36,443 nucleotides of DNA from Myxococcaceae bacterium (GTDB taxonomy: Bacteria > Myxococcota > Myxococcia > Myxococcales > Myxococcaceae). Position numbers and translations under genes: made by a program. The DNA lies in the NCBI GenBank assembly GCA_016926755.1, contig JAFGNZ010000358.1:1-36443 (forward strand), given 5' to 3'. This document shows positions 14,538-35,124 of this stretch, in pieces (within the stretch, counting starts at the first letter, position 1; each line of letters opens with the position of its first letter). The notes below the pieces were generated by a model. The model searched no databases. It was not told where the DNA came from and worked only from the letters and a program-made list of their open reading frames with translations.

Positions 14538-15686
14538 ATGCTGAACCTGAAGCCGTTGGCGGTAGGTGTGGTGCTGGCCGCTGCGAGCCACGCCCTGGCG
14601 GCCCCGCCGAAGCAGCTCGGCAAGCCCGAGGGCAAGCTCAACATCATCGCCTGGCCCGGCTATATCGAGCGCGGTGAGACGGACAAGAAGTACGACTGGG
14701 TCTCCCAGTTCGAGAAGGACTCCGGCTGCAAGGTCAACGTGAAGACGGCCGCCACCTCGGACGAGATGGTCAGCCTGATGAACCAGGGCGGGTACGATCT
14801 GGTCACCGCCTCTGGAGACGCCAGCCTGCGCCTGGTCCACGGCAAGAAGGTGCAGGAGCTCAACCTGGATCTCATCCCCTCGTGGAAGACGGTGGACGAG
14901 CGCCTCAAGAACGCGCCCTGGCACACCGTGGACGGCAAGCACTTCGGCGTGCCCTACCAGTGGGGCCCCAACGTGCTCATGTACAACACGAATATCTTCA
15001 AGGAGGCGCCCACCTCCTGGGCCGTGGTGTTCGAGCCGCAGAACCTGCCGGACGGCAAGCCCAACAAGGGCCGCGTGCAGGCCTATGACGGCCCCATCTA
15101 CATCGCAGACGCCGCGCTCTACCTGATGAAGAAGCGGCCGGAGCTGGGCATCAAGGATCCGTACGAGCTCAACGAGAAGCAGTACGCCGAGGCCCTCAAG
15201 CTGCTGCGCCAGCAGAAGCAGCTCACCCACCGCTACTGGCACGACGTCACCGTGCAGATGAACGACTTCAAGAACGAGGGCCTCGCCGCCTCCAGCGCCT
15301 GGGGCTACCAGGTCAACGCCCTCAAGGCCGAGAAGCAGCCCGTCAACTCCACCATCCCCGCCGAGGGCTCCACCGGCTGGGCGGACTCCACGATGATGCA
15401 CGTGAAGGCCCAGAACCCGGTGTGCGCGTACAAGTGGATGGAGTGGTCGCTCAACAAGAACCTGCAGTCCGCGCTGGCCGAGTGGTTCGGCTCCAACCCG
15501 GTGGTGCCTGACGCCTGCAAGACGCCGGCGCCCGGCGGAAGCGACTTCTGCAAGACAAATGGCTTCGAGCGCTTCGGGCAGGTCCACTTCTGGAAGACGC
15601 CCGTCGCCAAATGCGCTAGCCAGGGGACATGCGTGCCTTACAGCAAGTGGACGCAGGACTACATCGCCATCATGGGCGGCCGCTGA
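14538..15686 (+). CDS. Polyamine-type ABC transporter substrate-binding protein (YdcS/PotD-like)
   Basis: This 382-residue periplasmic protein has a Sec signal peptide (MLNLKPLAVGVVLAAASHAL, cleavage near ALA-APP). The mature part starts with the PotD-type strand LNIIAWPGYIERG and continues with TSDEMVSLMNQGGYDLVTAS, then GVPYQWGPNVLMYNT and STGWADSTMMHVKAQNP, all usual for spermidine/putrescine binding proteins. It has several Cys near the C-terminus (DACK, DFCKT, AKCASQGTC), probably disulfides. ATG 14538 follows AAGGAG. It is the first gene of a six-gene operon ending with patD and gabT, which makes putrescine or a related diamine the likely ligand. The arrangement parallels E. coli ydcSTUV-patD. 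Confidence 0.88.
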   Translation: MLNLKPLAVGVVLAAASHALAAPPKQLGKPEGKLNIIAWPGYIERGETDKKYDWVSQFEKDSGCKVNVKTAATSDEMVSLMNQGGYDLVTASGDASLRLVHGKKVQELNLDLIPSWKTVDERLKNAPWHTVDGKHFGVPYQWGPNVLMYNTNIFKEAPTSWAVVFEPQNLPDGKPNKGRVQAYDGPIYIADAALYLMKKRPELGIKDPYELNEKQYAEALKLLRQQKQLTHRYWHDVTVQMNDFKNEGLAASSAWGYQVNALKAEKQPVNSTIPAEGSTGWADSTMMHVKAQNPVCAYKWMEWSLNKNLQSALAEWFGSNPVVPDACKTPAPGGSDFCKTNGFERFGQVHFWKTPVAKCASQGTCVPYSKWTQDYIAIMGGR

Positions 15687-15691
15687 GTGAC

Positions 15692-16708
15692 GTGAGCACC
15701 GCCGTCGAGCTCAGACAGGTCAGTCGGCACTACGGCGCCGTCCGCGCCGTGGACGCCGTCTCCCTGTCCATCCAGGACGGGGAGTTCTTCTCCCTGCTGG
15801 GGCCCTCGGGCTCCGGGAAGACGACGTGCCTGCGCCTGATCGCCGGCTTCGAGCAGCCCACCTCCGGCAGCCTCCTGCTCCACGGGCAGGAGGCCGCCGG
15901 CGTCCCTCCCTACGAGCGGGACGTGAACACCGTGTTCCAGGACTACGCCCTGTTCCCGCACATGAGCGTGCGGGACAACGTGGCCTATGGGCTCATGGTG
16001 AAGGGGGTGGAGAAGCGCAAGCGCCACGCGGAGGCCGAGGCCGCGCTGGAGCTGGTGGCGCTCAAGGGCTTCGGCCAGCGCCGCCCCGCCGAGCTGTCCG
16101 GCGGCCAGCGCCAGCGCGTGGCCCTGGCGCGCGCCGTCATCAACAAGCCGCGCGTGCTGCTGTTGGATGAGCCGCTCGGCGCGCTGGATCTGCGGCTGCG
16201 CGAGCAGATGCAGACGGAGCTCAAGTCCCTGCAGCGCCGGCTGGGCATCACCTTCATCTACGTCACCCACGATCAGGGAGAGGCCCTCTCCATGTCGGAT
16301 CGGGTGGCCGTCTTCAACAACGGCCGGATCGAGCAGGTGGACACGCCCAGGGGGCTGTACACGAAGCCCCGCACGGTGTTCGTCGCCCGCTTCGTGGGCG
16401 CCTCCAACGTGGTGGAGGGCGAGCTGGCGCGGCGGATCACCGGCTCGGAGCGGCCGTTCTCGGTGCGGCCGGAGCACATCCGCTTCGTCCGGGAGGCGCA
16501 GGCGGAGCACCTGGGGGTGGAGGGCACGCTGGTGGACGTGCAGTACCACGGGGCCACCAGCCGCTTCACCGTGGAGGTGCCCGGCGGCCCGCCGCTCAAC
16601 GTGAGCCTCCCCAATGGCGAGGAGGAGGCGGTGCGGCCCGCGCTCGGCGAGCCGGTGCGGCTGGCCTGGTCCCGCCATGCCATGGTGGAGCTGGAGCCGG
16701 GGGCCTGA
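15692..16708 (+). CDS. Polyamine-type ABC transporter ATP-binding protein (PotA/YdcT-like)
   Basis: This 338-residue ATPase has Walker A GPSGSGKTT, Q-loop VFQDYALFPHMSV, signature LSGGQRQR, Walker B VLLLDEPLGALD and H-loop VTHDQGEA. The C-terminal ~100 residues form a TOBE/OB regulatory domain (FSVRPEHIRFV, VEGTLVDVQYHGATSRF), as in PotA and other CUT/polyamine importers. The start is taken as GTG 15692, 6 bp after the binding-protein stop. No ATG lies between the upstream stop and the first strand, and an earlier in-frame ATG (15629) would overlap the upstream gene by 58 bp. It energises the two permeases that follow. Confidence 0.9.
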   Translation: MSTAVELRQVSRHYGAVRAVDAVSLSIQDGEFFSLLGPSGSGKTTCLRLIAGFEQPTSGSLLLHGQEAAGVPPYERDVNTVFQDYALFPHMSVRDNVAYGLMVKGVEKRKRHAEAEAALELVALKGFGQRRPAELSGGQRQRVALARAVINKPRVLLLDEPLGALDLRLREQMQTELKSLQRRLGITFIYVTHDQGEALSMSDRVAVFNNGRIEQVDTPRGLYTKPRTVFVARFVGASNVVEGELARRITGSERPFSVRPEHIRFVREAQAEHLGVEGTLVDVQYHGATSRFTVEVPGGPPLNVSLPNGEEEAVRPALGEPVRLAWSRHAMVELEPGA

Positions 16709-16710
16709 GC

Positions 16711-17637
16711 ATGGGAACGGCGAGCGCCGGGGTCGTGCGCCCCCTCTCGAACCTGCTGTACCGGCGGAGCACGCTGCGCCTGTTCCTGCTGCTCACCCCG
16801 CCGCTGCTCTGGTTCGGCGTGGTGTACCTGGGCTCGCTCCTGGCGCTGCTGGCCCAGAGCTTCAACACCTTCGACGACTTCACCATGGCGGTGACGCCCG
16901 AGTTCACCTGGGCCAACTACCAGGCGCTGTTCGAGGAGGCCAACGCCGACATCGTCCTGCGCACGGTGGGCATGGCCGCCGCGGTGACGATCGCCTCCGC
17001 GCTGCTGGCCTTCCCCATCGCCTACTACGTGGCGCGCTACGCCCAGGGCTGGCGCAAGGGGTTCTTCTACGTCGCGATCATGCTGCCCATGTGGGCCAGC
17101 TACATCGTCAAGGCCTACGCCTGGACGGTCATCCTCACCAAGGGCGGCATCCTCTACTGGCTGATCGGCAACCTGGGGCTGACGGGCGCGCTGGAGTGGG
17201 TGCTGGAGCTGCCCTACGTGGGCGGCACCTCGCTCTCCACCTCCAACCTGGGCCGCTTCCTGGTGTTCACCTATATCTGGCTGCCCTTCATGATCCTGCC
17301 CGTCCAGGCCTCCATCGAGCGGGTGCCGCCCCAGCTCCTCCAGGCCTCGGCGGATCTCGGCGCCCGGCCGACGCAGACCTTCCGCACCGTCATCCTCCCG
17401 CTGGCCTTCCCCGGCGTGGTGGCGGGCTCCATCTTCACCTTCTCGCTCACGCTCGGCGACTACATCATCCCGCAGCTGGTGGGGCCGCCGGGGCTCTTCA
17501 TCGGCTCCATGGTGTACACGCTGCAGGGCTCCGTGGGGAACCTGCCCCTGGCCGCGGCCTTCACCGGGGTGCCCATCCTCCTCGTCGGTGCCTACCTGGC
17601 CATGGCCAGGCGGCTGGGGGCCTTCGATGCGCTCTGA
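16711..17637 (+). CDS. Polyamine-type ABC transporter permease (PotB/YdcU-like)
   Basis: This 308-residue inner-membrane protein has about six transmembrane helices, beginning [20 protein letters not shown]. The cytoplasmic EAA loop that docks on the ATPase reads [20 protein letters not shown], followed by [12 protein letters not shown], matching the EAA-x3-G-x9-I-x-LP pattern with Ala to Ser changes. The large periplasmic loop ([19 protein letters not shown]) is typical of the PotB side. It starts 2 bp after the ATPase stop and overlaps the next permease gene by 11 bp, consistent with translational coupling in one operon. Confidence 0.9.
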
Positions 17638-18454
17638 GGCGAGCTCGGCCGGCGAGCCGCGCACCCCTCCATGGTTGAAGGTGCTGGCCTGGGCCGGGCT
17701 GCTGTTCCTCCACTTCCCCATCCTGGTGGTGGGCCTCTACGCCTTCAACACCGAGGAGAGCGCCTTCAGCTTCCCCCTCAAGGGCTTCACCCTGCGCTGG
17801 TTCGAGGTGGCCGCGGCGCGCGAGGATGTGCTGGAGGCCATCGGCCTGTCGCTGAAGGTGGCGGTGGCGGCCACCGCCCTGGCCCTGGTGCTGGGCACCC
17901 TGGCCGCGCTGGTGCTCGCCCGGCGCCAGTTCTTCGGCCGCGAGGCGCTCACGCTGATCTTCGCCCTGCCCATTGCCTTGCCGGGCATCATCACCGGCAT
18001 CGCCCTGCTGTCCGCGTTCCGGATGTCCGAGACCCCCCTGGGCTTCTGGACCATCGCCGCCGGCCACGCCACCTTCTGCCTGGTGGTCGTCTACAACAAC
18101 GTCGTCGCCCGCCTGCGCCGCATGCCGACCTCGCTGGTGGAGGCCTCCATGGATCTGGGCGCCGACGGGCTGCAGACGTTCCGCTACGTGCTGCTGCCCC
18201 AGCTGGCCACCGCCCTGCTGGCCGGCGGCATCCTCGCCTTTGCCCTCAGCTTCGACGAGATCATCGTCACCACCTTCACCGCCGGCCACGAGCGGACGCT
18301 GCCCATCTGGATGCTCAACCAGCTGGGGCGCCCGCGCGACGTGCCGGTGACGAACGTGGTGGCCCTCCTGGTGATGCTCATCACCGCCATTCCCCTCTTG
18401 CTGGCCTGGCGCCTCACCCGAGGCACCGAGCAGGTGGCCGGCAGCAGCAAGTGA
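17627..18454 (+). CDS. Polyamine-type ABC transporter permease (PotC/YdcV-like)
   Basis: The second permease, 275 residues with about six transmembrane helices. It starts with a short hydrophilic segment and [20 protein letters not shown], typical of PotC. The EAA loop is [20 protein letters not shown] followed by [12 protein letters not shown]. Near the C-terminus, [13 protein letters not shown] carries the conserved S-x-D-E of polyamine permeases. ATG 17627 lies inside the end of the PotB-like gene (11-bp overlap), so translation is likely coupled. Together with the three preceding genes this makes a complete importer. After 52 bp comes patD with its own strong SD. Confidence 0.9.
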
Positions 18455-18506
18455 CGCAACCGAGGCGGCCGGCCCGGCCCCTCCCGCAGGACAAGGAGAC
18501 GAGCTC

Positions 18507-19931
18507 ATGGATGGCAAGCAGTTCATCGACGGGCAGTTCGTGGTGGGCGAGGGCGCGGTGGAGGAGATCCTCGATCCCGCCACGGGCGAGGTGCTGGCCA
18601 AGGTCCCCGAGGCCTCCCATGCGCAGATCCAGGCCGCGGTGAAGGCGGCCGAGAGGGCCTTCCCGGCCTGGGCCCGCACCCCACCCAAGGATCGGGCCAC
18701 CGCGCTGCTCAAGCTGGCCGACGCCATCGAGGCCAAGGGCGCGGAGCTCGCCCGCCTGGAGTCTCGCAACTGCGGCAAGCCGTACGCCGCGGCCCTCAAT
18801 GACGAGATCCCCGCCATCGCGGACGTGTTCCGCTTCTTCGCGGGCGCGGCGCGCTGCATGTCCGGCATGGCCACCGGCGAGTACGCCGCCGGCTACACCA
18901 GCATGATCCGCCGGGATCCCCTGGGCGTGGTGGCCTCCATCGCCCCGTGGAACTACCCGCTGATGATGGCCGCGTGGAAGCTGGGCCCGGCGGTCGCCGC
19001 CGGCAACACCGTGGTGCTCAAGCCCTCCGAGCAGACGCCGCTCACCACGCTGAAGCTGGCCGAGCTGATCGCTGGCATCTTCCCGCCCGGCGTGATCAAC
19101 CTCGTGACGGGCCGCGGGGAGAGCGTGGGCGCGCCGCTCATCACCCATCCCCAGGTGCGCATGGTGTCGCTCACGGGCGATGTCGCCACGGGCTCGAAGG
19201 TGCTCCAGGCCGCCTCGCAGAGCCTCAAGCGGACCCACCTGGAGCTGGGCGGCAAGGCGCCTGTCATCGTCTTCGACGACGCGGACCTGGCCAGCGTGGT
19301 GTCCGGCCTGCGCGCCTTCGGCTTCTACAACGCGGGCCAGGACTGCACCGCCGCGTGCCGCATCTACGCGGGCGCCAAGGTGTATGACCGGCTGGTGGCG
19401 GACCTGAGCAGCGCCGTGTCCTCCATCAAGGTGGGCACCCAGCAGGAGGAGGGCGTGGAGATGGGGCCGCTCATCTCCGAGCGGCAGCGCCAGCGCGTGG
19501 CGGGCTTCGTGGAGCGCGCCGCGAGCCAGAAGCACATCGAGATCACCACCGGCGGCAAGCCGGGCACCGGCAAGGGCTTCTTCTTCGCGCCCACCGTGGT
19601 GGCGGGGGCTCGGCAGGACGACGAGATCGTCCGCCGCGAGGTGTTCGGCCCCGTCGTCTCCGTGACGCGCTTCGAGGAGCCGGACCAGGCCATCGCCTGG
19701 GCGAATGACTCGGACTATGGCCTGGCCAGCTCGGTGTGGACGAAGGACATCGGCAAGGCCATGAAGGTGGCGGCCGAGCTGCAATACGGCTGCACGTGGA
19801 TCAACTCGCACTTCATGCTGGTGAGCGAGATGCCCCACGGCGGCATGAAGCGCTCCGGCTACGGCAAGGATCTGTCCATGTACGCGCTCGAGGACTACTC
19901 CGTCGTGCGCCACGTGATGGTGAAGTACTGA
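18507..19931 (+). CDS. patD: 4-aminobutyraldehyde (gamma-aminobutyraldehyde) dehydrogenase
   Basis: This 474-residue NAD(P)-dependent aldehyde dehydrogenase is very close to E. coli PatD/YdcW as I remember it. Shared blocks include [49 protein letters not shown] and [12 protein letters not shown]. The catalytic Cys is C280 in [11 protein letters not shown] and the general base is E246 in [18 protein letters not shown] (usually GS) is the cofactor loop. It oxidises 4-aminobutanal to GABA, the second step of putrescine breakdown. ATG 18507 follows AAGGAG. It is encoded right behind a polyamine importer and 17 bp ahead of gabT, which strongly supports the role. Confidence 0.92.
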
Positions 19932-19948
19932 CGCGACAGGGGAGCAAG

Positions 19949-21217
19949 ATGAAGGACAACGCCAGTTTGCGCAGCCGTAGGGAGACCGCCACCCCGCGTG
20001 GCGTGTCGGTGATGGCTCCCTTCTTCGTGGAGCGCGCGGAGAACAGCGAGCTCTGGGACGTGGAGGGCCGCCGCTACATCGACTTCGCGGGCGGCATCGC
20101 CGTGCTCAACACCGGGCACCGCCACCCGAAGGTGATCGCCGCGGTGAAGGCCCAGCTCGACGCCTTCACCCACAGCGCCTACCAGGTGGTGGCCTATGAG
20201 GGCTATGTGGCGCTGGCCGAGCGCCTCAACCGGCTCGCCCCCGGCGCCTCCCCCAAGAAGACCAGCTTCTTCTCCACCGGGGCCGAGGCGGTCGAGAACG
20301 CGGTGAAGATCTCCCGCGCCGCCACGGGCCGCAGCGGCGTCATCGCCTTCAGCGGCGCGTTCCACGGGCGCACCCTGCTGGGCATGGCGCTCACCGGGAA
20401 GGTGGTGCCCTACAAGGCCTCCTTCGGGCCCTTCCCGCAGGACATCTACCACGTGCCCTTCCCGTCGGCGCTGCACGGCGTCAGCGTGGAGGACTCGCTC
20501 CGGGCGCTGCAGCTGATCTTCAAGGCGGACATCGAGCCGAGCAGGGTGGCCGCCATCCTCCTCGAGCCGGTGCAGGGGGAGGGCGGCTTCTACGTGGCGC
20601 CCCCCGAGCTCATGCGGGCGCTGCGGCGCGTGTGTGATGAGCACGGCATCCTCCTCATCGCCGACGAGATCCAGACGGGGTTCGCTCGGACGGGGAAGTG
20701 GTTCGCCATGGAGCACTACGACGTGGCGCCGGACCTGATGACCACGGCCAAGTCGCTGGCGGGCGGCTTCCCGCTGTCGGCGGTGACGGGCCGGGCGGAG
20801 GTGATGGACGCGCCGGGGCCTGGGGGGCTCGGGGGCACCTACGCGGGCAGCCCCATGTCCATCGCGGCGGCCCACGCGGTGCTGGACGTGATCGAAGAGG
20901 AGGGCCTGGTGAAGCGGGCCAACCACCTGGGCGAGGTGCTGCGCGGCCGGCTGGACGCGCTCAAGTCCCGGCAGCCGCGCATCGCCGAGGTGCGCGGGCT
21001 GGGCGCCATGCTGGCGGTGGAGCTCTGTCAGCCCGGCGGGCACACCCCGGATCCGGACTTCACCCGCGCCGCGCAGGCCCGGGCCCTCCAGCGCGGGCTG
21101 CTGCTGCTGTCCTGCGGCATCTACGGCAATGTCCTCCGCTTCCTCTTCCCGCTCACCATCCCCGAGCCCGTCTTCAACGAAGGGCTGTCCCTCCTGGAGG
21201 AGGCGCTGAGCGCGTAG
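19949..21217 (+). CDS. gabT: 4-aminobutyrate--2-oxoglutarate transaminase
   Basis: This 422-residue class III PLP aminotransferase is close to E. coli GabT along its length: PRGVSVMAPFFVERAENSEL, YIDFAGGIAVLNTGHRHP, STGAEAVENAVKISRAAT, LEPVQGEGGFYVAPP, GGLGGTYAGSP and LLLLSCGIYGNVLRFL. The PLP lysine is K268 in TTAKSLAGGFPL. The reaction gives succinate semialdehyde and glutamate from GABA. ATG 19949 follows AGGGGAGC. It completes the pathway from 4-aminobutanal. No succinate-semialdehyde dehydrogenase (gabD) is in the window, so that step must be encoded elsewhere or done by a promiscuous aldehyde dehydrogenase. Confidence 0.92.
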   Translation: MKDNASLRSRRETATPRGVSVMAPFFVERAENSELWDVEGRRYIDFAGGIAVLNTGHRHPKVIAAVKAQLDAFTHSAYQVVAYEGYVALAERLNRLAPGASPKKTSFFSTGAEAVENAVKISRAATGRSGVIAFSGAFHGRTLLGMALTGKVVPYKASFGPFPQDIYHVPFPSALHGVSVEDSLRALQLIFKADIEPSRVAAILLEPVQGEGGFYVAPPELMRALRRVCDEHGILLIADEIQTGFARTGKWFAMEHYDVAPDLMTTAKSLAGGFPLSAVTGRAEVMDAPGPGGLGGTYAGSPMSIAAAHAVLDVIEEEGLVKRANHLGEVLRGRLDALKSRQPRIAEVRGLGAMLAVELCQPGGHTPDPDFTRAAQARALQRGLLLLSCGIYGNVLRFLFPLTIPEPVFNEGLSLLEEALSA

Positions 21218-28940: not shown

Positions 28941-29114
28941 GGATAGAGCCTCCCCCCAACTGCGTGTCAGGAGGCCTAACGTGCTGCTCGTGGCCGGAAC
29001 AGCCATGCGGTCTTCACTGTGCGCTCTTGAACAGAGCTCATGCCGGAATTCGGGCGATCTCCTCGCGCCCCTGCCACGCGCCGGACGTCTCCCTCGTACG
29101 GGGGGGTGATGGCG

Positions 29115-29124
29115 GAAATATTTC
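29115..29124. promoter_or_regulatory. AT-rich palindrome in the 300-bp divergent gap
   Basis: The gap 28941-29240 between the sensor kinase (-) and the CotH operon (+) contains no gene I can support. GAAATATTTC at 29115-29124 is a perfect palindrome and the only AT-rich point in the gap. It lies ~117 bp before the CotH ATG and could be an operator or part of a promoter. The rest shows no clear -35/-10 or sigma-54 element. Confidence 0.3.
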
Positions 29125-29240
29125 GTCACACCCGCGCAACGAACAGGTCACGGCTCCCCTTCAGGGTGGCACCTCGCTGCATCAGCGCCGGCACGGAGCC
29201 GGTCCTGGACGAGGGCCTGGGTGCCCCTTGGGAGAAGCGT

Positions 29241-30797
29241 ATGCGCGGAGTTTCGCGACTGGGAGCGCTGGGCGCGCTCGTGTTCCTCGCCACGGCCTGC
29301 GGAGAGGGCCGGCCTGACGGCTGGAGCGAGGAGACGCACGGGAAGAACGCCCCGCCCGCGTATGACATCGTCTTCCCGTCGGACAAGGTTCAGCGGATCG
29401 ACATCGCCATCGCGCCAGAGGACTGGCAGGCGATGCAGGACGACATGACGAGCATGCTGGGCGCGTTCGGCGCGGGTGGGGGCCCTGGAGGTGGGGGGCC
29501 GGGAGGTGGAGGCGGCGGTCCCCCGCCGGAGCTGACGGAGGCCTGCAAGGACAAGGCCTCCGGCGACGCGTGCACCGCGACCTTGAATGGCACCACCTTC
29601 ACGTCCACGTGTGGCCAGCCTCCAGACGGAGCGCTGCTGTGCATCCCTCCGGGCGGACCTGGCGGGGGAGGGCCGGGGGGACCGGGGGGACCGGGGGGAG
29701 GGGGCGGCGTGGATCTCATCCCCAACACCCCGGTGTACGTGCGCTCGACGGTGCACTTCAACGGCGAGGCGTGGTGGCACGTGGGGGTTCGCTTCAAGGG
29801 GAACTCCACGCTGTCGGGAGGCTGGCGCTCCGGGGTGGGCAAGCTGCCCTTCCGGCTCAACTTCGACAAGTTCGAGCAGGAGCACCCCGAGATCGAGGAC
29901 CAGCACTTCTACGGCTTCAGCAAGCTGTCGCTCTCCAGCGGCTCGGGGGATCCGTCGTACCTTCGGGACAAGGTCGCCTCGGATACCTTCCTCGCGGCCG
30001 GGGTGCCGGCGGCGCACACGAGCTTCATGGCCGTCTACGTGGACCATGGTGACGGACCCGAGTACTTCGGCCTCTACACGGCCGCGGAGGATCCGCAGGA
30101 CTCGCTGGTCAACACCCACTTCGGCGATGACGAGGGCGCGCTCTACGAGGCGGATGGTGTCGGCGCCCGGTGGGGGACGTTCGATCAGGCCTCCTTCCAG
30201 GCTCAGTCCGGCGCGGCCGAGGCGGGCTGGGAGAGCATCGAGGCGGCCATCGCCGCGCTCCACGCCGATCGCAGCGACGCCGCGGCCTGGCGTGCGGGCC
30301 TGGAGGCGCGGCTGGACGTGGACGGCTTCCTGCGGTGGCTCGCCATCAACACGGTGATGGTGAACTGGGACAGCTACGGCTCCATGCCGCACAACTACTA
30401 CCTCTACGCGGATCCGAGCGAGGGGAACCGGCTGCGGTGGATCACCTGGGACCACAACCTGTCCATGTCTTCCCGCCAGGCGCTCTCGCTGACGCTCTCC
30501 GAGGTCACCGCGGACTGGCCGCTCATCCGCTACCTGATGGACGAGCCGGTCTACCGGGCGAGGTACGAGCAGCTCGCGCGCGAGGCGGTTGAAGGTCCGC
30601 TCGCCGCGGCCACGATGAAGGAGCGCATGCAGGCGGCGCACGATCTGATCGCGCCCTGGGTGGTGGGAGAGAACGCCGAGCGGCAGGGCTTCACCTATAC
30701 CAACCCTGAGCAGTTCGAGAGCTCCTTCAGCGGCAGCACGGGCCTGCTCTATCACGCCGAGCAGCGGGAGGCGGCGGTGCGGACGACCTTCCCATGA
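29241..30797 (+). CDS. CotH-kinase family lipoprotein with Gly-rich and 4-Cys insert
   Basis: The protein has 518 residues. The start is ATG 29241 with GGGAG upstream; the signal peptide MRGVSRLGALGALVFLATAC has the lipobox Cys at 20, so it is envelope-anchored. CotH homology begins at ~41 (YDIVFPSDKVQRIDIAIAPE) and resumes at ~160 (VYVRSTVHFNG, VGVRFKGNSTL). It includes EYFGLYTAAEDPQD, DGFLRWLAINTVMVNWDSYG followed by SMPHNYYLY, and the metal-site motif ITWDHNL (~401-407). Between the two parts, residues ~78-156 form an insert: two Gly/Pro tracts flanking a 4-Cys mini-domain (C102, C111, C124, C134). CotH proteins are atypical kinases that phosphorylate proteins such as spore-coat CotB/CotG. 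It is the first gene of a five-gene operon, overlapping the VTC gene by 4 bp. Confidence 0.9.
   Translation: MRGVSRLGALGALVFLATACGEGRPDGWSEETHGKNAPPAYDIVFPSDKVQRIDIAIAPEDWQAMQDDMTSMLGAFGAGGGPGGGGPGGGGGGPPPELTEACKDKASGDACTATLNGTTFTSTCGQPPDGALLCIPPGGPGGGGPGGPGGPGGGGGVDLIPNTPVYVRSTVHFNGEAWWHVGVRFKGNSTLSGGWRSGVGKLPFRLNFDKFEQEHPEIEDQHFYGFSKLSLSSGSGDPSYLRDKVASDTFLAAGVPAAHTSFMAVYVDHGDGPEYFGLYTAAEDPQDSLVNTHFGDDEGALYEADGVGARWGTFDQASFQAQSGAAEAGWESIEAAIAALHADRSDAAAWRAGLEARLDVDGFLRWLAINTVMVNWDSYGSMPHNYYLYADPSEGNRLRWITWDHNLSMSSRQALSLTLSEVTADWPLIRYLMDEPVYRARYEQLAREAVEGPLAAATMKERMQAAHDLIAPWVVGENAERQGFTYTNPEQFESSFSGSTGLLYHAEQREAAVRTTFP
29673..29699 (+). repeat. Three tandem 9-bp repeats in a G-quadruplex-prone tract
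   Basis: CCGGGGGGA occurs three times in a row, in frame with the CotH-like gene, coding for part of its second Gly/Pro tract. The flanking GGGGGAGGG and GAGGGGG extend a run of more than four G-tracts on the coding strand (29663-29705). Copy-number change by slippage would keep the frame. Confidence 0.75.
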
Positions 30798-31564
30798 GCG
30801 CCCTGGCCTGGACGGGTCCCTCTCCCATGGAGCGCGCCTCGGTGGAGCTGGATCATGAGCGGCGCTTCCAGCCGACCTCCGAGGTGGTGCAGGCCTTCTT
30901 GACGGCCACGCAGGCGTTCACCGAGCCGTGCGTGTATGAGCCCGGCCGTCCGTATGCTTTCACGCGCACCACGTACTTCGACACCGAGGGGCTCTCCCTG
31001 CTGGCCTCCAGCGGGACCGGCTGCGCGCAGCGCCTGAGGCTGCGGGAGTACGCGGAGGCGGCGGAGCTCACCCGCCCTCCTGTCCTGACGGGCCTGCGGT
31101 ACCTCGAGGTGAAGGCGACGACCGGGGCGCGCCGCATGAAGTCCCGCCGTCCGGTCTCGGCGGAAGAGGCGGACGCGCTGCTGGGGGGCACTCCGCTGCC
31201 AGCGGGGAGCGCGGTGGGCTCCTTGCTGCGGCAGCTCACCCACGCTCCGGTCAGGCCTTGGGTGACGACCTGGTACCGGCGCACCACCCGGGTGAACAGC
31301 GACGGCCGTGTCCGCATCACCCTCGACGAGGATCTCCTCTTCGCGCTCCCGCCCGATCCTGCCGGGCACGCTCCTCCCGCGCGCCCGTTGAAGCACGCGT
31401 CCTGCCCGCTGCTCGAAGTGAAGTGGGCAGGGCGCGCGCCGCCATGGCTCGAGCAGTCGCTCCTGCCGTTGGCCGGCTCCGAGTCCCATGGCTCGAAGTT
31501 CGAGCAGGGCATGTGCGCTCTCTTCAGCAGCGTCCTCGGACCGCTCGTGCTCAGCCCACGCTGA
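30794..31564 (+). CDS. VTC domain (polyphosphate polymerase-like, TTM superfamily) protein
   Basis: This 256-residue protein is a single CYTH-like tunnel domain. It shows the family's strand series: HERRFQP (~21-27), YAFTRTTYFDTEGLSLL, AQRLRLREY, LRYLEVKAT, ARRMKSRRPVS (basic tunnel residues), RVRITLDEDLLF, CPLLEVKWAGRAPPWLEQSL and GSKFEQG. This matches bacterial 'polyphosphate polymerase domain-containing' proteins related to yeast Vtc4, which makes polyphosphate from ATP. No SPX domain is present. There is no signal peptide, so it should be cytoplasmic. Its ATG lies in the stop of the CotH gene (ATGA), giving translational coupling. Activity is inferred from the family. Confidence 0.88.
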   Translation: MSALAWTGPSPMERASVELDHERRFQPTSEVVQAFLTATQAFTEPCVYEPGRPYAFTRTTYFDTEGLSLLASSGTGCAQRLRLREYAEAAELTRPPVLTGLRYLEVKATTGARRMKSRRPVSAEEADALLGGTPLPAGSAVGSLLRQLTHAPVRPWVTTWYRRTTRVNSDGRVRITLDEDLLFALPPDPAGHAPPARPLKHASCPLLEVKWAGRAPPWLEQSLLPLAGSESHGSKFEQGMCALFSSVLGPLVLSPR

Positions 31565-31611
31565 CGGGCCGTGGCGTCCTCACTGGAACCCCTCCCAAGG
31601 ACCTCTCCCTC

Positions 31612-32790
31612 GTGTCTGCCTCTCCTCGTCGCTCCACTGGCTGGGACCTGCTCCTCGGCATTCTTCTCCTCGTGGGCTCCTCCGCCAGCGCCCAGGCGCC
31701 CGCTCCGGAGCCTGCGCCGGAAGGCTCGGAGTCCGCGGCGCCGGAGCGCCCTGAAGTCCCCATGCAGCCGGAGGCCCCGCCGCCCGAGGACGGGCTCGTC
31801 CTCTCCACGGCGCTCGGCTCGGTGGAGGGAGGGGGGCGCCTCTCCGTGCGCGAGGCCCTGGAGGCTCCTCGCGGCGGGGCCTGGGCGGGCGAGCTCTCCG
31901 TCGCCGCCTCCCGCCTCGAGTTCACCTACCGCTGGAAGAAGCGCCTGCGCGCCGTGGTGGAGTTCGATGTGGTGGGCGATCTGGATCTGAAGGATGCGTT
32001 CGTCTGGCTGAAGATCTCCAAGGGCTTCGCCGTCCGAGCCGGCCGCTTCAAGGTGCCGCTGTCCCTGGTGGAGCTGGAGTCAGCCCAGGCGCTCCCGCTC
32101 GTTCGGCGCGGCCTGCTGCGCGACGTGCTGGATGACGCCCTGGGCTTCACCGGCCGGAGCGCCGGGGCCCAGGTGGAGTGGAAGTGCTCGGGCTGCGCGC
32201 GGGACCTGAAGCTGCGCGCGGGGGTGTGGCAGACGCGAGACTCGGACAAGAAGATCGCGCTCTCCAAGGGGCTCGGCCTCGTCCCAGCGCTTCGAGGCAC
32301 GTGGGGCACGGGGAACTGGGAGGTGGGCGCCTCCGCGTTCCTGCAGCCCGCCGGGGCGAACACGAACAGCGAGCGGAACAGCTGGATGACGGGGCTGGAT
32401 GTCCGGCACACGCTCCCTCTCGGCCAGGCCACCCTGCGCACCTGGGCGGAGCTCCTCACGGGGCGGGCGGCGTTCCTCGGCGGAACGGAAGGGCCCCTGC
32501 TCACCGGCCGTGCGCTGACGGCGCTGCGCCTGGGAGGGGAGGGGAAGGGCGCGGCGTACCTCGAGCCTTTCCTGATGCTCTCGGCGCTCGATCCGGATCT
32601 CGATCGCTCCGAGGACCGGGTGTGGGAGGGCGCCGTGGGCCTCAACGCGGGGCAGTGGCGGCGGTGGCGGGTGCAGGCGCAGTTCGAGCTCCGCAGCGCG
32701 GGCGCGGACGTGCCTCCCTCGCTCGTGGCGTTGGAGGAGGACCTCGCCTCGCGGCGAGCGCTGATGGTGCAACTGGAGGTGGGCTTCTGA
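31612..32790 (+). CDS. Outer-membrane beta-barrel, OprO/OprP (phosphate-selective porin)-like
   Basis: The protein has 392 residues. The start is taken as GTG 31612 (no ATG is nearby; AAGGA lies 12 nt upstream). The signal peptide GWDLLLGILLLVGSSASAQA is followed by a Pro/Glu-rich linker (APAPEPAPEGSESAAPERPE), which may pass through the periplasm. Beta-strand pattern starts at ~85. LKDAFVWLKISKGFAVRAGR followed by FKVPLSLVELESAQAL matches the conserved strand pair of phosphate-selective porins, and a terminal aromatic (VQLEVGF) supports outer-membrane insertion. An unusual WKCSGCARDLK Cys pair occurs mid-barrel. Its stop overlaps the next start (TGATG). In this operon it could move phosphate or a phosphorylated product across the outer membrane, which is inference. 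Confidence 0.78.
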   Translation: MSASPRRSTGWDLLLGILLLVGSSASAQAPAPEPAPEGSESAAPERPEVPMQPEAPPPEDGLVLSTALGSVEGGGRLSVREALEAPRGGAWAGELSVAASRLEFTYRWKKRLRAVVEFDVVGDLDLKDAFVWLKISKGFAVRAGRFKVPLSLVELESAQALPLVRRGLLRDVLDDALGFTGRSAGAQVEWKCSGCARDLKLRAGVWQTRDSDKKIALSKGLGLVPALRGTWGTGNWEVGASAFLQPAGANTNSERNSWMTGLDVRHTLPLGQATLRTWAELLTGRAAFLGGTEGPLLTGRALTALRLGGEGKGAAYLEPFLMLSALDPDLDRSEDRVWEGAVGLNAGQWRRWRVQAQFELRSAGADVPPSLVALEEDLASRRALMVQLEVGF

Positions 32791-34469
32791 TGTTGATCGT
32801 CTTCGAGGGAATCGACGGGTCCGGAAAGACGACCCTCTCCAACCGGGTGGCGCAGGAGCTGCGCAAGGCGGGCCTCCGGGTGCGGCACGTCCGCGAGGGT
32901 GGGCAGCTGGCCTCTCCCGTCTCCGAGGCGCTGCGGGGCTTCACGCGGAACCCCGCCCACCTGGCGCTCACGCCCACGGCGGAGCTGCTGCTCTACGCGG
33001 CGCGAGAGGCCCAGCTCCTGGAGGAGGTGACGCGCCCGGCGCTGGCCGAGTACGAGATCGTCATCACCGATCGCTTCTTCTACACGGCCGAGGTGCTCGC
33101 GCGCTGGGGCCGCGGGCTCTCGGAGGAGCAGGTGCGGCCGGTGCTGGAGGCGTGCTCGCGGGGGCTGGAGCCGGACTGTGTCTTCCTCATGGATGTGGAT
33201 CCGGCCCTGGCGCGCGCCCGCCGCCGCATCTCGAAGATCCTGTCGCCGAAGGCCGGGACATCCTCCCGGAAGGGGCTCGCGGGGGCCGGGCTGCAGGTGA
33301 GGCTGCGCGCGGGCTACCGCAGCCTCGCGGCCGAGTCCCCCGAGCGATGGACGCTCCTCGAGAACGCGGGGGTGCCTCTCGAAGTGCTCGTCCAGCAGGT
33401 GGTGCAGGACATCCTCCAGCTCCGTGGCGGAGGCGCCCCCGCCGCGCGAGCGCCTCGCTCCGCCCCACCGCCGGTGCGCTCCGTGGCGGAGGCGCGCGCG
33501 CGGTTCCTCCAGCACGTGGATCTCTGGAGGGTGGAGGAGCCGCCGCTGGCCGCCTGGTTTCTCTCGGGCCTGGAGGGCGCGGACATGATGGAGCGCCGGA
33601 GGCTCCTGGCCGAGCGTTGCCCCGAGCTGGTGGCGTACAGCCTCTCCGGGCTCACGGATGAGGCTGCGTGGCAGCTCCGGCGGCAGCTGGTGGAGGTGGC
33701 TCCGGGGCAGGTCATCGGCTCACTCCGCGACGTGGCGGCGGACACACCGGAGGCGTGGGAGCTCCGGGCGCGGATGGTGGCGCGAATCCCCGGGGAGGTG
33801 GCGGCGTCGCTCAACAGGATCGACTCGGAGCAGGCCTGGCAGCTGCGCGAGCGCCTCTACTTCTCGGCCTGGGAGGGGGTGATCATCTCGCTCCAAGGGC
33901 TGGACGGAGCGAGGGCGTGGAGCGAGCGGCTGCGCTGGCTCTCGGACGCTGGCGGGGAGGACGCGCTGGGCCTGGAGCGGGTGGCGCGCACGGCCTGTCG
34001 CTCCATTCGAGGGCTCGACAGCGAGCAGGCCTGGTCGTGGCGGCAGCGCGCCTGGGCCACGGCGCCGGACGAGGTGCTTCGCTCGCTGGACGGGCTGGAG
34101 AGCCCGCGGGCCTGGGAGCTCCGCGAACAGCACGCGGCGCGTGCCCCCAAGCTCGTCCTCGGTACGCTCAGCGGCCTGGACACCCCCCGCGCGTGGGCGC
34201 TGCGCGAGTCCTTCGGCGTGCAGTGCGAGGAGGTGCTGGACTCGCTCGTGGGCTTGGAGGGCACGGCGGCCTGGGGGCTGCGCACGGCGCTGGCGGACAC
34301 CTGGCCCTCGGCGACGGTGAAGAGCCTGGGCCCTCTGCTGCGGACGGCTCGCGGGCGCGCCCTGGCCGAGCGGCTCCTGGCGAGCCACCCTCAGGACTTT
34401 GCCCTCCTGCGCCAGGCGGCCCGTGGCGCACCTGACACCTTCCAGGGAGCACTCCATGCCTCCGCTTGA
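32790..34469 (+). CDS. Thymidylate-kinase-like P-loop kinase fused to AWxLR repeat array
   Basis: The protein has 559 residues. Residues 1-212 are a thymidylate-kinase-type domain: MLIVFEGIDGSGKTT (P-loop 7-15), REGG (35-38; REPGG in normal TMPK), TPTAELLLYAAREAQLLEEV, TDRFFYTAEVLA (DR at 94-95) and VFLMDVDPALARARRR. After a Pro/Ala linker (214-230), the C-terminal ~300 residues are tandem ~27-residue helical units. Trp sits in AW pairs at 293-294, 322-323, 349-350, 376-377, 414-415, 441-442, 468-469 and 494-495. The unit reads about AWxLRx(8)P-x-EV-x2-SL-x-GL. Thymidylate kinases are ~210 residues and stand alone, so this fusion is unusual. ATG 32790 shares its A with the porin stop. A housekeeping tmk is presumably elsewhere. 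The substrate is unknown; PPK2 polyphosphate kinases share this fold. Confidence 0.85.
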   Translation: MLIVFEGIDGSGKTTLSNRVAQELRKAGLRVRHVREGGQLASPVSEALRGFTRNPAHLALTPTAELLLYAAREAQLLEEVTRPALAEYEIVITDRFFYTAEVLARWGRGLSEEQVRPVLEACSRGLEPDCVFLMDVDPALARARRRISKILSPKAGTSSRKGLAGAGLQVRLRAGYRSLAAESPERWTLLENAGVPLEVLVQQVVQDILQLRGGGAPAARAPRSAPPPVRSVAEARARFLQHVDLWRVEEPPLAAWFLSGLEGADMMERRRLLAERCPELVAYSLSGLTDEAAWQLRRQLVEVAPGQVIGSLRDVAADTPEAWELRARMVARIPGEVAASLNRIDSEQAWQLRERLYFSAWEGVIISLQGLDGARAWSERLRWLSDAGGEDALGLERVARTACRSIRGLDSEQAWSWRQRAWATAPDEVLRSLDGLESPRAWELREQHAARAPKLVLGTLSGLDTPRAWALRESFGVQCEEVLDSLVGLEGTAAWGLRTALADTWPSATVKSLGPLLRTARGRALAERLLASHPQDFALLRQAARGAPDTFQGALHASA

Positions 34470-35124
34470 AACCGCGCTGCAGGGGCTCGATGTCGGCCCT
34501 CACGGGCTCGCCATCTCCCAGCTCCTGCTGCGCTTCGCCCTCGCGCTGGTGCTCGGAGGGATCCTCGCCTATCGGCCCTGGCGCAAGCTCATGGCCAATG
34601 CACCCCCTGTCGTTCCCGAGGCGGCCCACACGCAGGTGCTGATCGCCGTGGCGGGAGCGCTGATGACGGCGGTGATTGGTGACAGCGTGTCCCGGGCCTT
34701 CGGCCTGGTGGGGCTGGGGGGCTTCATCCGCTTCCGCTCGGGCATCAAGGATCCGCGGGATGCGGCGGTCATGTTCGTGATGATCGGCGTGGGGATGGCG
34801 TGCGGGCTGGGGACCTTCCCGCTGGCGCTGTGCGGGACGGCGTTCTTCGCCAGCGTGCTGCTGGTGCTGGACGCGACCAGCAAGCGGCGGATGGAGGTGG
34901 TGAGGCTGTCGCTGGGGCTCGAAGACTTGAACGCAGCGCTGGCACCCCTGAAGGCGCTACACCCGGAGGCCCGCTTCCTCTCGCTCGAGCAGTCTTCCTC
35001 GTCCCCCGCGGGCACCGCCGTCGTCGAGCTCTCCGTGCCGGCCCGGACGGATGGCCTGGAGCTGCTCCAGGGGCTGCGCAGCCAGCTCCCGGGAGTCCAG
35101 AGCGCCTCCATCGATCCGGGGTGA
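34456..35124 (+). CDS. DUF4956 family inner-membrane protein
   Basis: The protein has 222 residues with about four transmembrane helices: LLRFALALVLGGILAY, HTQVLIAVAGALMTAVIGDS, VMFVMIGVGMACGLG and ALCGTAFFASVLLVLDA. The conserved DUF4956 core SRAFGLVGLGGFIRFRSGIK followed by DPRDAAVMF is clear. A soluble ACT-like C-terminal domain (~135-222, MEVVRLSLGLEDLNAALAPL) ends the protein. Start: ATG 34456 with GGGAG upstream, overlapping the kinase-fusion gene by 14 bp. DUF4956 genes are commonly found with VTC and CotH genes, as here. Function is not established. The stop is only 4 bp from the ssrA-like fragment that follows. Confidence 0.88.
   Translation: MPPLETALQGLDVGPHGLAISQLLLRFALALVLGGILAYRPWRKLMANAPPVVPEAAHTQVLIAVAGALMTAVIGDSVSRAFGLVGLGGFIRFRSGIKDPRDAAVMFVMIGVGMACGLGTFPLALCGTAFFASVLLVLDATSKRRMEVVRLSLGLEDLNAALAPLKALHPEARFLSLEQSSSSPAGTAVVELSVPARTDGLELLQGLRSQLPGVQSASIDPG

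Follow-up and report, generated by a model that had tools for sequence, protein, structure and literature searches.

A conserved operon of porin, VTC, TMPK-repeat and DUF4956 genes with a putative Pho-box-like array in Myxococcaceae

Genes for CotH, a polyphosphate polymerase (VTC) and DUF4956 adjoin the pel exopolysaccharide clusters of Gram-positive bacteria, as described in the accessible part of one report (PMC7112168), and comparable CotH and VTC genes are present in NELoc-2 of Clostridium perfringens according to the available text of another (PMC2879425). Here, we describe a five-gene operon containing the same three families in a 36,443-nucleotide stretch of DNA (the window) from a Myxococcaceae bacterium (GenBank assembly GCA_016926755.1); the window is a whole contig (JAFGNZ010000358.1, C71) of a 9.6-Mb genome in 409 contigs. 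The association of CotH, VTC and DUF4956, which the original prediction had described as a known one, is thus already in print. In the window, as in the pel-cluster set as far as the available text describes it, the genes for CotH, a VTC-family polymerase and DUF4956 are neighbours. Unlike that set, the window adds an outer-membrane porin and a thymidylate kinase (TMK)-like solenoid protein, comes from a Gram-negative phylum and carries a Pho-box-like array; in addition, one of the two forms of the operon described below (form A) has no CotH gene at the locus, and the scanned genes of the window included no pel gene.

In the open-licence literature, which leaves aside subscription papers and preprints, we found no description of the porin/TMPK-solenoid/VTC/DUF4956 combination or of a Pho-type promoter for it. 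Thus, the CotH-VTC-DUF4956 core is known, and the combination with the porin, the TMPK-repeat protein and the Pho-box-like array is, as far as we found, new. We propose that the operon encodes a Pho-regulated module for phosphate capture and polyphosphate formation in myxobacteria, predatory bacteria of the soil, a reading to which we assign a probability of about one half. The features of the window on which this proposal is built are as follows.

29113-29151, + strand: putative Pho-box-like array, four 6-bp units with an 11-bp period, 90-128 bp upstream of the CotH start
29241-30797, + strand: CotH-family kinase, predicted lipoprotein (PF08757, E 1.3e-57)
30794-31564, + strand: VTC-domain protein, polyphosphate-polymerase-type triphosphate tunnel enzyme (PF09359, E 2.7e-16)
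about 31612-32790, + strand: Porin_O_P-like outer-membrane barrel (PF07396, structure model and Foldseek); GTG start likely, uncertain
32790-34469, + strand: TMK-like P-loop domain (about residues 1-215) with a helical-repeat solenoid (about residues 230-550), the TMPK-repeat protein (PF02223, TIGR00041 and AlphaFold model)
34456-35124, + strand: DUF4956/MgtC-like inner-membrane protein (PF16316 and hydrophobic segments)

Operon architecture and co-conservation

The five open reading frames lie on the + strand where they had originally been placed, with the same junctions: the CotH and VTC genes overlap by 4 bp, a gap of 47 bp separates the VTC and porin genes, and the TMPK-repeat gene overlaps the porin gene by 1 bp and the DUF4956 gene by 14 bp. 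The same order, on a single strand, was seen in 20 loci with proteins about 50-76% identical to those of the window, so that the five-gene order is not a product of chance. The analysis bears out both a single operon and the view that its products serve several layers of the envelope. The earlier family assignments stood as well, each of the five proteins scoring above the cut-off of its Pfam family, with the qualifications that the porin start codon is uncertain and that the last gene falls between DUF4956 and MgtC; the TMPK repeats are present and are better described as a helical solenoid, as seen in the AlphaFold model.

PF09359 had matches in 71 of 96 genomes of Myxococcaceae. We compared 94 VTC loci, the window and 93 others, in which genes were called by a codon-usage script and labelled with profiles made from the window proteins. 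The porin, VTC, TMPK-repeat and DUF4956 genes were found together in 85 of the 94 loci, all in two fixed orders: porin-VTC-TMPK-DUF4956 (form A, 65 loci) and CotH-VTC-porin-TMPK-DUF4956 (form B, 20 loci, the window among them). Two porins among the 85 intact loci (L043 and L082) are interrupted by contig ends. Thus, the porin and TMPK-repeat genes are kept with VTC and DUF4956, as the original prediction had suggested, and its view of CotH as a fixed partner is not supported, since 65 of the 85 loci have no CotH gene at the locus. The genome of the window contains both forms (form A at L032); the chromosomal context is common to the form A loci and variable for form B. The nine remaining loci are four VTC-DUF4956 pairs (L033-L036), a CotH-VTC pair (L038), a VTC-porin pair (L053), a lone VTC gene (L075), and two loci at or close to contig ends (L077 and L121).

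In midpoint-rooted FastTree trees, form B proteins formed clades with support of 0.97 for VTC, 0.995 for the porin and 1.0 for the TMPK-repeat protein, and weakly (0.415) for DUF4956. For the four core proteins, pairwise distances correlated at 0.85-0.96 within form A and 0.87-0.94 within form B, to which shared species history contributes in part.

Two of the exceptional loci turned out to be halves of a split form B. Genome G067 has CotH-VTC (L038) and porin-TMPK-DUF4956 (L262) on different contigs, and genome G042 likewise has VTC-porin-DUF47 (L053) and CotH-TMPK-DUF4956 (L265), so that each retains all five families despite the split. The proteins of the halves are 60-79% identical to those of the window versus 34-53% to those of form A, where BLAST gave a form A match. 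The two splits are independent and the retained parts are complementary, which is better evidence of a shared function than linkage by itself.

The distribution outside the family was also considered. A scan of 84,980 species, one genome each, with a single peptide pattern of the repeat domain found 38 related loci, and the records are myxobacterial by title except for a 'Proteobacteria' metagenome-assembled genome (L159) and a 'Comamonas' record (L128). The latter (BNCN01000003.1, titled Comamonas sp. KCTC 72670) has form A with 82% identity and was placed in the family of the window, and its title looks wrong. Across 195 Myxococcota genomes, the TMPK-repeat protein was found in 75 and VTC in 94. 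In deeper lineages, VTC-DUF4956 occurs with neither porin nor TMPK-repeat gene, and one TMPK-repeat gene was seen standing alone, with no VTC, porin or DUF4956 gene nearby (L257:7062-8726, G157; G157 had no VTC match among the matches listed in the phylum-wide search). Together with the published set, as given in the accessible part of PMC7112168, these cases would suit an ordinary CotH-VTC-DUF4956 group in which the porin and kinase genes are hitchhikers without a shared function. We consider this very improbable: the four core genes stay together in 85 of 94 loci, both split genomes hold on to all five families, form A keeps the porin and kinase where CotH is absent, and the porin is also joined to VTC-DUF4956 in five distant loci (L239, L241, L242, L246 and L248).

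The upstream repeat array

Pho boxes are direct repeats with an 11-nt period whose consensus varies between species, according to the available portion of PMC4415409. Like the Pho regulon promoters of pst and phoB, the window operon has upstream direct repeats with an 11-nt period; unlike the E. coli Pho box (CTGTCAT), the putative array has the consensus YGTVAM. The window array (CGGAAATATTTCGTCACACCCGCGCAACGAACAGGTCAC, 29113-29151) consists of the units CGGAAA, CGTCAC, CGCAAC and GGTCAC, with one-mismatch pairs at 29113 and 29124. Since 5 such pairs were found in the 36 kb against 4.45 expected, which is not above chance, the window array draws its weight from its place and from matching arrays in relatives rather than from its own rarity. 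Indeed, the same array was found at the same relative place in relatives of the window operon.

We searched up to 400 bp upstream of genes for two YGTVAM units at a distance of 11 bp, leaving out genes with less than 200 bp of upstream sequence. Pairs with at most one mismatch were found at 20 of 21 form B CotH genes and 38 of 56 form A porin genes, compared with 24 of 759 other genes and 6 of 290 genes inside the operons; the respective numbers for exact pairs were 15 of 21, 22 of 56, 2 of 759 and 0 of 290. Because the degenerate pattern was derived by eye from these same promoters, the counts for forms A and B are descriptive and are not an independent test. When spacings from 6 to 29 bp were compared, form B had exact pairs elsewhere only at 9 bp (2), 22 bp (5) and 27 bp (3), versus 15 at 11 bp, and form A only at 15 bp (1), 21 bp (1) and 22 bp (3), versus 22 at 11 bp. 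For the 759 other genes, the number of exact pairs was 2 at 11 bp and reached at most 7, at 12 bp. The sites that scored best with the E. coli consensus resembled each other in repeating YGTVAM at 11 bp. A sigma-70 promoter scan found none.

Allowing one mismatch, the array was found before pstS in 10 of 30 loci and at 12 of 18 testable pst operon starts, the other 12 of the 30 loci being left out of the second count for too short an upstream region. The first gene of the pst operon encodes a Porin_O_P protein in L211, L215 and L224 and an OmpR-type regulator in L203, and in L226 its product had no Pfam match. In L161 and L162 the array precedes phoB-phoR beside DUF47-PiT, with VTC, sodium/phosphate (Na/Pi) cotransporter and TMPK-repeat genes about 9 kb away. 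By the same test, the split halves keep the array at L262 and L265 and not at L038 or before L053. A search of six whole genomes for three exact units gave 5 hits, with 0 in the control and none in G077; in G036 and G038 the sole hit is the form B promoter. Taken together, it appears that the operon belongs to the Pho regulon, with a putative array shared with pst and phoB promoters.

The three remaining three-unit arrays (L233, L234 and L235) lie near a gene for a VWA-domain-like secreted protein, one for an EamA-like carrier and a divergent pair of genes, all named by eye.

The encoded proteins

The window porin matched Porin_O_P (PF07396) with an E value of 3.7e-8 and 33.4 bits (cut-off 20.9) over about 110 of its 392 residues. 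The AlphaFold model, with a mean predicted local distance difference test (pLDDT) score of 81, has 16 long strands after residue 68, and the best Foldseek matches were OprP (2o4v, E 2.5e-14) and OprO (4rjw), with general porins not far behind. Thus, the protein is like the phosphate and pyrophosphate porins OprP and OprO of Pseudomonas in its Pfam match above the cut-off, its modelled 16-strand barrel and its top structural matches. Unlike them, it shares only 12-16% identity with OprP/OprO, general porins score close to them, and its gene is linked to VTC, either in place of pst or in addition to it.

The VTC profile matched yeast VTC4 (3g3q, E 4e-17). In the alignment, VTC4 residues R264, R266, K281 and K294 correspond to R82, R84, K107 and K116 of the window protein, and R361, R373, E426 and K458 to R163, R174, E208 and K235. 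R82 and E208 are invariant in 24 sequences, position 84 is Arg or Lys, and the position of VTC4 K200 is Arg in form B. Besides R264, R266 and E426, the aligned residues presumably have a role in VTC4 as well. The change R264A/R266A/E426N impairs catalysis by VTC4, according to the part of PMC9911596 available; the residues needed for catalysis, whose absence would have spoken against the original prediction, are kept in the window protein as R82, R84 and E208. Like the yeast VTC complex, the window pairs a triphosphate-tunnel domain that has these three and further basic residues with a membrane protein. Unlike in yeast, the partner is DUF4956/MgtC-like and polyphosphate synthesis is predicted only. 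Since the 256-residue protein has neither an SPX nor a Vtc1-type membrane domain, VTC being its sole Pfam match, it is best regarded as a VTC-domain enzyme and not as a eukaryotic-type VTC complex.

The N-terminal part of the TMPK-repeat protein matched Thymidylate_kin (PF02223, E 2.6e-20) and TIGR00041 (87.3 bits, cut-off 83.25). The AlphaFold model (mean pLDDT 90) consists of a TMK domain and a helical solenoid, and structure comparison with VIA-align matched residues 1-215 to TMK structures with Z scores up to 25.8 (4edh). Like thymidylate kinase, the TMPK-repeat proteins have the fold, the P-loop, the DR motif and the lid region. Unlike thymidylate kinase, they carry a C-terminal solenoid and have lost FxxxR, which we take to be the thymine-site motif of TMKs: its Arg is replaced by Asp in 65 of 65 form A sequences and by Glu in 20 of 20 form B sequences, and its Phe by Asn or Tyr (sequences of 500 residues or fewer were left out of the alignment). 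The genome also has a separate canonical TMK (161 bits) that reads YAADR and DRYVLSSLAYQ. Because FxxxR is replaced, we call the protein TMK-like and do not file it as a TMK. The P-loop of the canonical enzyme (L193:1369-2031) reads GLDGAGTTT, with Thr where Lys is usual.

Three other identities were rejected. A plain thymidylate kinase was discarded in view of the altered FxxxR in 85 of 85 sequences and the separate TMK gene. A PPK2-like kinase was set aside since no PPK2 Pfam match was found at E values up to 1, despite a DRxxY resemblance. A defence system was likewise dismissed, as PADLOC gave weak TMK-domain-like matches to one of the five proteins (PDC-M51B, E 3.6e-8; VakA, 1.5e-5).

These two enzymes also bear on the possibility that VTC catalyses another triphosphate-tunnel reaction, with the TMK-like kinase making or consuming a nucleotide partner, so that the product is a small-molecule phosphate metabolite and not polyphosphate. 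Triphosphate tunnel enzymes catalyse varied reactions (PMC4641920, in the part available), form B has Arg at the VTC4 K200 position, the kinase has a changed acceptor pocket in all 85 sequences and a second, canonical TMK is encoded in the genome, and two PPK1 genes there already make polyphosphate. On the other hand, both the Pfam and the PDB profile matches point to VTC4 itself, and the residues of the inactivating mutations are kept. We regard such a reaction as rather improbable.

The CotH protein has the lipobox LATAC with Cys at residue 20, and this N-terminus is common to its relatives. Two Asp residues, in NWD and WDH, are invariant in 21 sequences. The catalytic Asp residues of Bacillus subtilis CotH are D228 and D251, as given in the available text of PMC7821199; the two Asp residues of the window protein were matched to them by context and spacing (27 versus 23 residues), not by alignment. 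A Gly/Pro-rich low-complexity insert at 29570-29770 of the window varies in length among relatives. The last protein of the operon matched DUF4956 (PF16316) with an E value of 1.2e-8 and 35.3 bits (cut-off 30.6), and MgtC with 30.9 bits, below its cut-off of 31.4.

A proposed phosphate-capture and polyphosphate module and alternative functions

From the gene set and order, their conservation, the conserved residues and the array with its occurrence at pst and phoB promoters, we infer the regulation by PhoB/PhoP, the activities and the direction of flow, storage included. In the proposed capture module, a PhoB/PhoP-type regulator would bind the array at 29113-29151 and turn the operon on at low phosphate. 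The OprP/OprO-like porin would admit phosphate, pyrophosphate or short polyphosphate across the outer membrane, and a phosphate transporter would carry phosphate across the inner membrane, a linked PiT or Na/Pi transporter in some relatives and presumably Pst elsewhere. VTC, on the cytoplasmic side of the inner membrane, would build polyphosphate from the gamma-phosphate of ATP, and DUF4956 would be its partner in the membrane, in the way that Vtc1 partners Vtc4 in yeast. For the TMK-like kinase, whose acceptor site is altered, the substrate may be a different phosphate or nucleotide acceptor, and the solenoid may serve for docking. The lipoprotein kinase CotH of form B would work beyond the inner membrane, on phosphate that this system carries. 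The roles given to the kinase and to DUF4956, whether translocator or anchor, are guesses from position and fold.

Genes next to the relatives fit a phosphate function. A DUF47 (PhoU-like) gene lies next to form B at 5 of 21 loci and is also found in L053, and in the form B locus L046 DUF47 is followed by a PHO4/PiT permease. A Na/Pi cotransporter lies beside VTC in L159-L162 (Na_Pi_cotrans matches in L160 and L161, homologues in L159 and L162). Downstream of form A, a DUF3108-like lipoprotein is encoded in 62 of 66 loci and a purple-acid-phosphatase-like protein in 51 of 66. The phosphate theme of the original prediction is therefore backed by the Pho-box-like promoter, the transporters next to relatives and the OprP/OprO-like porin model.

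The DUF3108-like lipoprotein (L073:10691-11518 and L160:9424-10032), whose match is below the Pfam cut-off, also occurs in distant VTC loci. L161:9694-16865 and L162:9719-17118 combine, in this order, VTC, Na/Pi cotransporter, TMPK-repeat, arsenic-resistance-like, PiT, DUF47 and phoB-phoR genes and look like a phosphate/arsenate island; the arsenic-type genes, named by eye, encode an ArsA-like ATPase, an ACR3-like carrier, and ArsC- and ArsM-like proteins.

Export is the main rival to capture because of the HlyD/TolC neighbours of VTC in other lineages. Here, VTC would make polyphosphate or a related polymer, DUF4956 would pass it across the inner membrane and the porin out of the cell, where it might coat the surface or be attached to surface proteins with the help of CotH, much as in the original prediction. 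In L033, L034, L035, L036 and L250, VTC-DUF4956 is followed by HlyD (PF13437) and TolC-like OEP (PF02321) genes, that is, a periplasmic adaptor and an outer-membrane duct; the labels come from Pfam for L036, from similarity for L033-L035 and from reading at a contig end for L250. A PPDK_N-domain lipoprotein is encoded upstream in L033, L034 and L036. The adjacency of CotH, VTC and DUF4956 to pel genes in Gram-positives (PMC7112168, accessible part) and the coupling of synthesis to membrane translocation in eukaryotic VTC (PMC9911596, available part) also favour export. However, HlyD and TolC genes are missing from the form A and form B operons, the array is absent from the exporter-like loci except for one weak one-mismatch hit in L034, and acquisition is a better match than loss of phosphate for the Pho-box-like promoter and for the linked transporters of the PiT or Na/Pi type. 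Moreover, porins of the OprP/OprO type are known for uptake. We regard export as rather unlikely for this operon, and the original idea of a phosphate polymer exported or attached to surface proteins is unsupported as stated, a Pho-type promoter fitting capture or storage at least equally well.

Several observations weigh against the capture module. The array was not found, even at one mismatch, in 18 of 56 form A promoters, nor upstream of the core operon in loci of the Anaeromyxobacter type, of f2 or of deeper lineages; its pattern was read from the promoters in which it was counted; and the E. coli Pho-box consensus CTGTCAT-N4-CTGTCAT showed no excess at these promoters over other genes. 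In the six whole genomes, the other three of the three-unit hits had no evident link to phosphate and no pst promoter was hit. PiT is adjacent in one form B locus only, and PHO4 had no match in the genome of the window. The HlyD/TolC-like neighbours in L033-L036 suggest export in those loci. Two PPK1 genes are already present in the genome, and we found no activity assay for a bacterial VTC of this clade in the literature searched. Finally, polyphosphate synthesis during starvation would be odd unless it serves capture on refeeding.

With these points taken into account, the capture module is a candidate for the system behind the 'polyphosphate overplus' reported for Myxococcus xanthus since 1966 (Voelz 1966, by its title as cited in PMC7332688), and would offer a concrete gene set for it. 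More broadly, the results point to a VTC-type system for polyphosphate in bacteria whose genes are conserved together and include those for an OprP/OprO-like porin and a solenoid kinase derived from TMK, and open a route to the roles of the widespread DUF4956 and bacterial VTC and to the phosphate source of secreted CotH kinases. On the last point, CotH kinases would lack ATP outside the inner membrane, and VTC and DUF4956 might provide polyphosphate, or the phosphates at its ends, synthesised in the cell and moved across the membrane for their use, forming a Pho-switched envelope phosphorylation system. This idea is speculative and quite improbable; if true, it would explain the CotH/VTC/DUF4956 neighbourhood in clostridia and myxobacteria alike.

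Elsewhere in the window, genes for a solute-binding protein, an ABC ATPase, a permease, an aldehyde dehydrogenase and a class III aminotransferase follow each other at 14538-21217, an arrangement suggestive of an operon for taking up and degrading a polyamine or a gamma-aminobutyric acid (GABA)-like compound.

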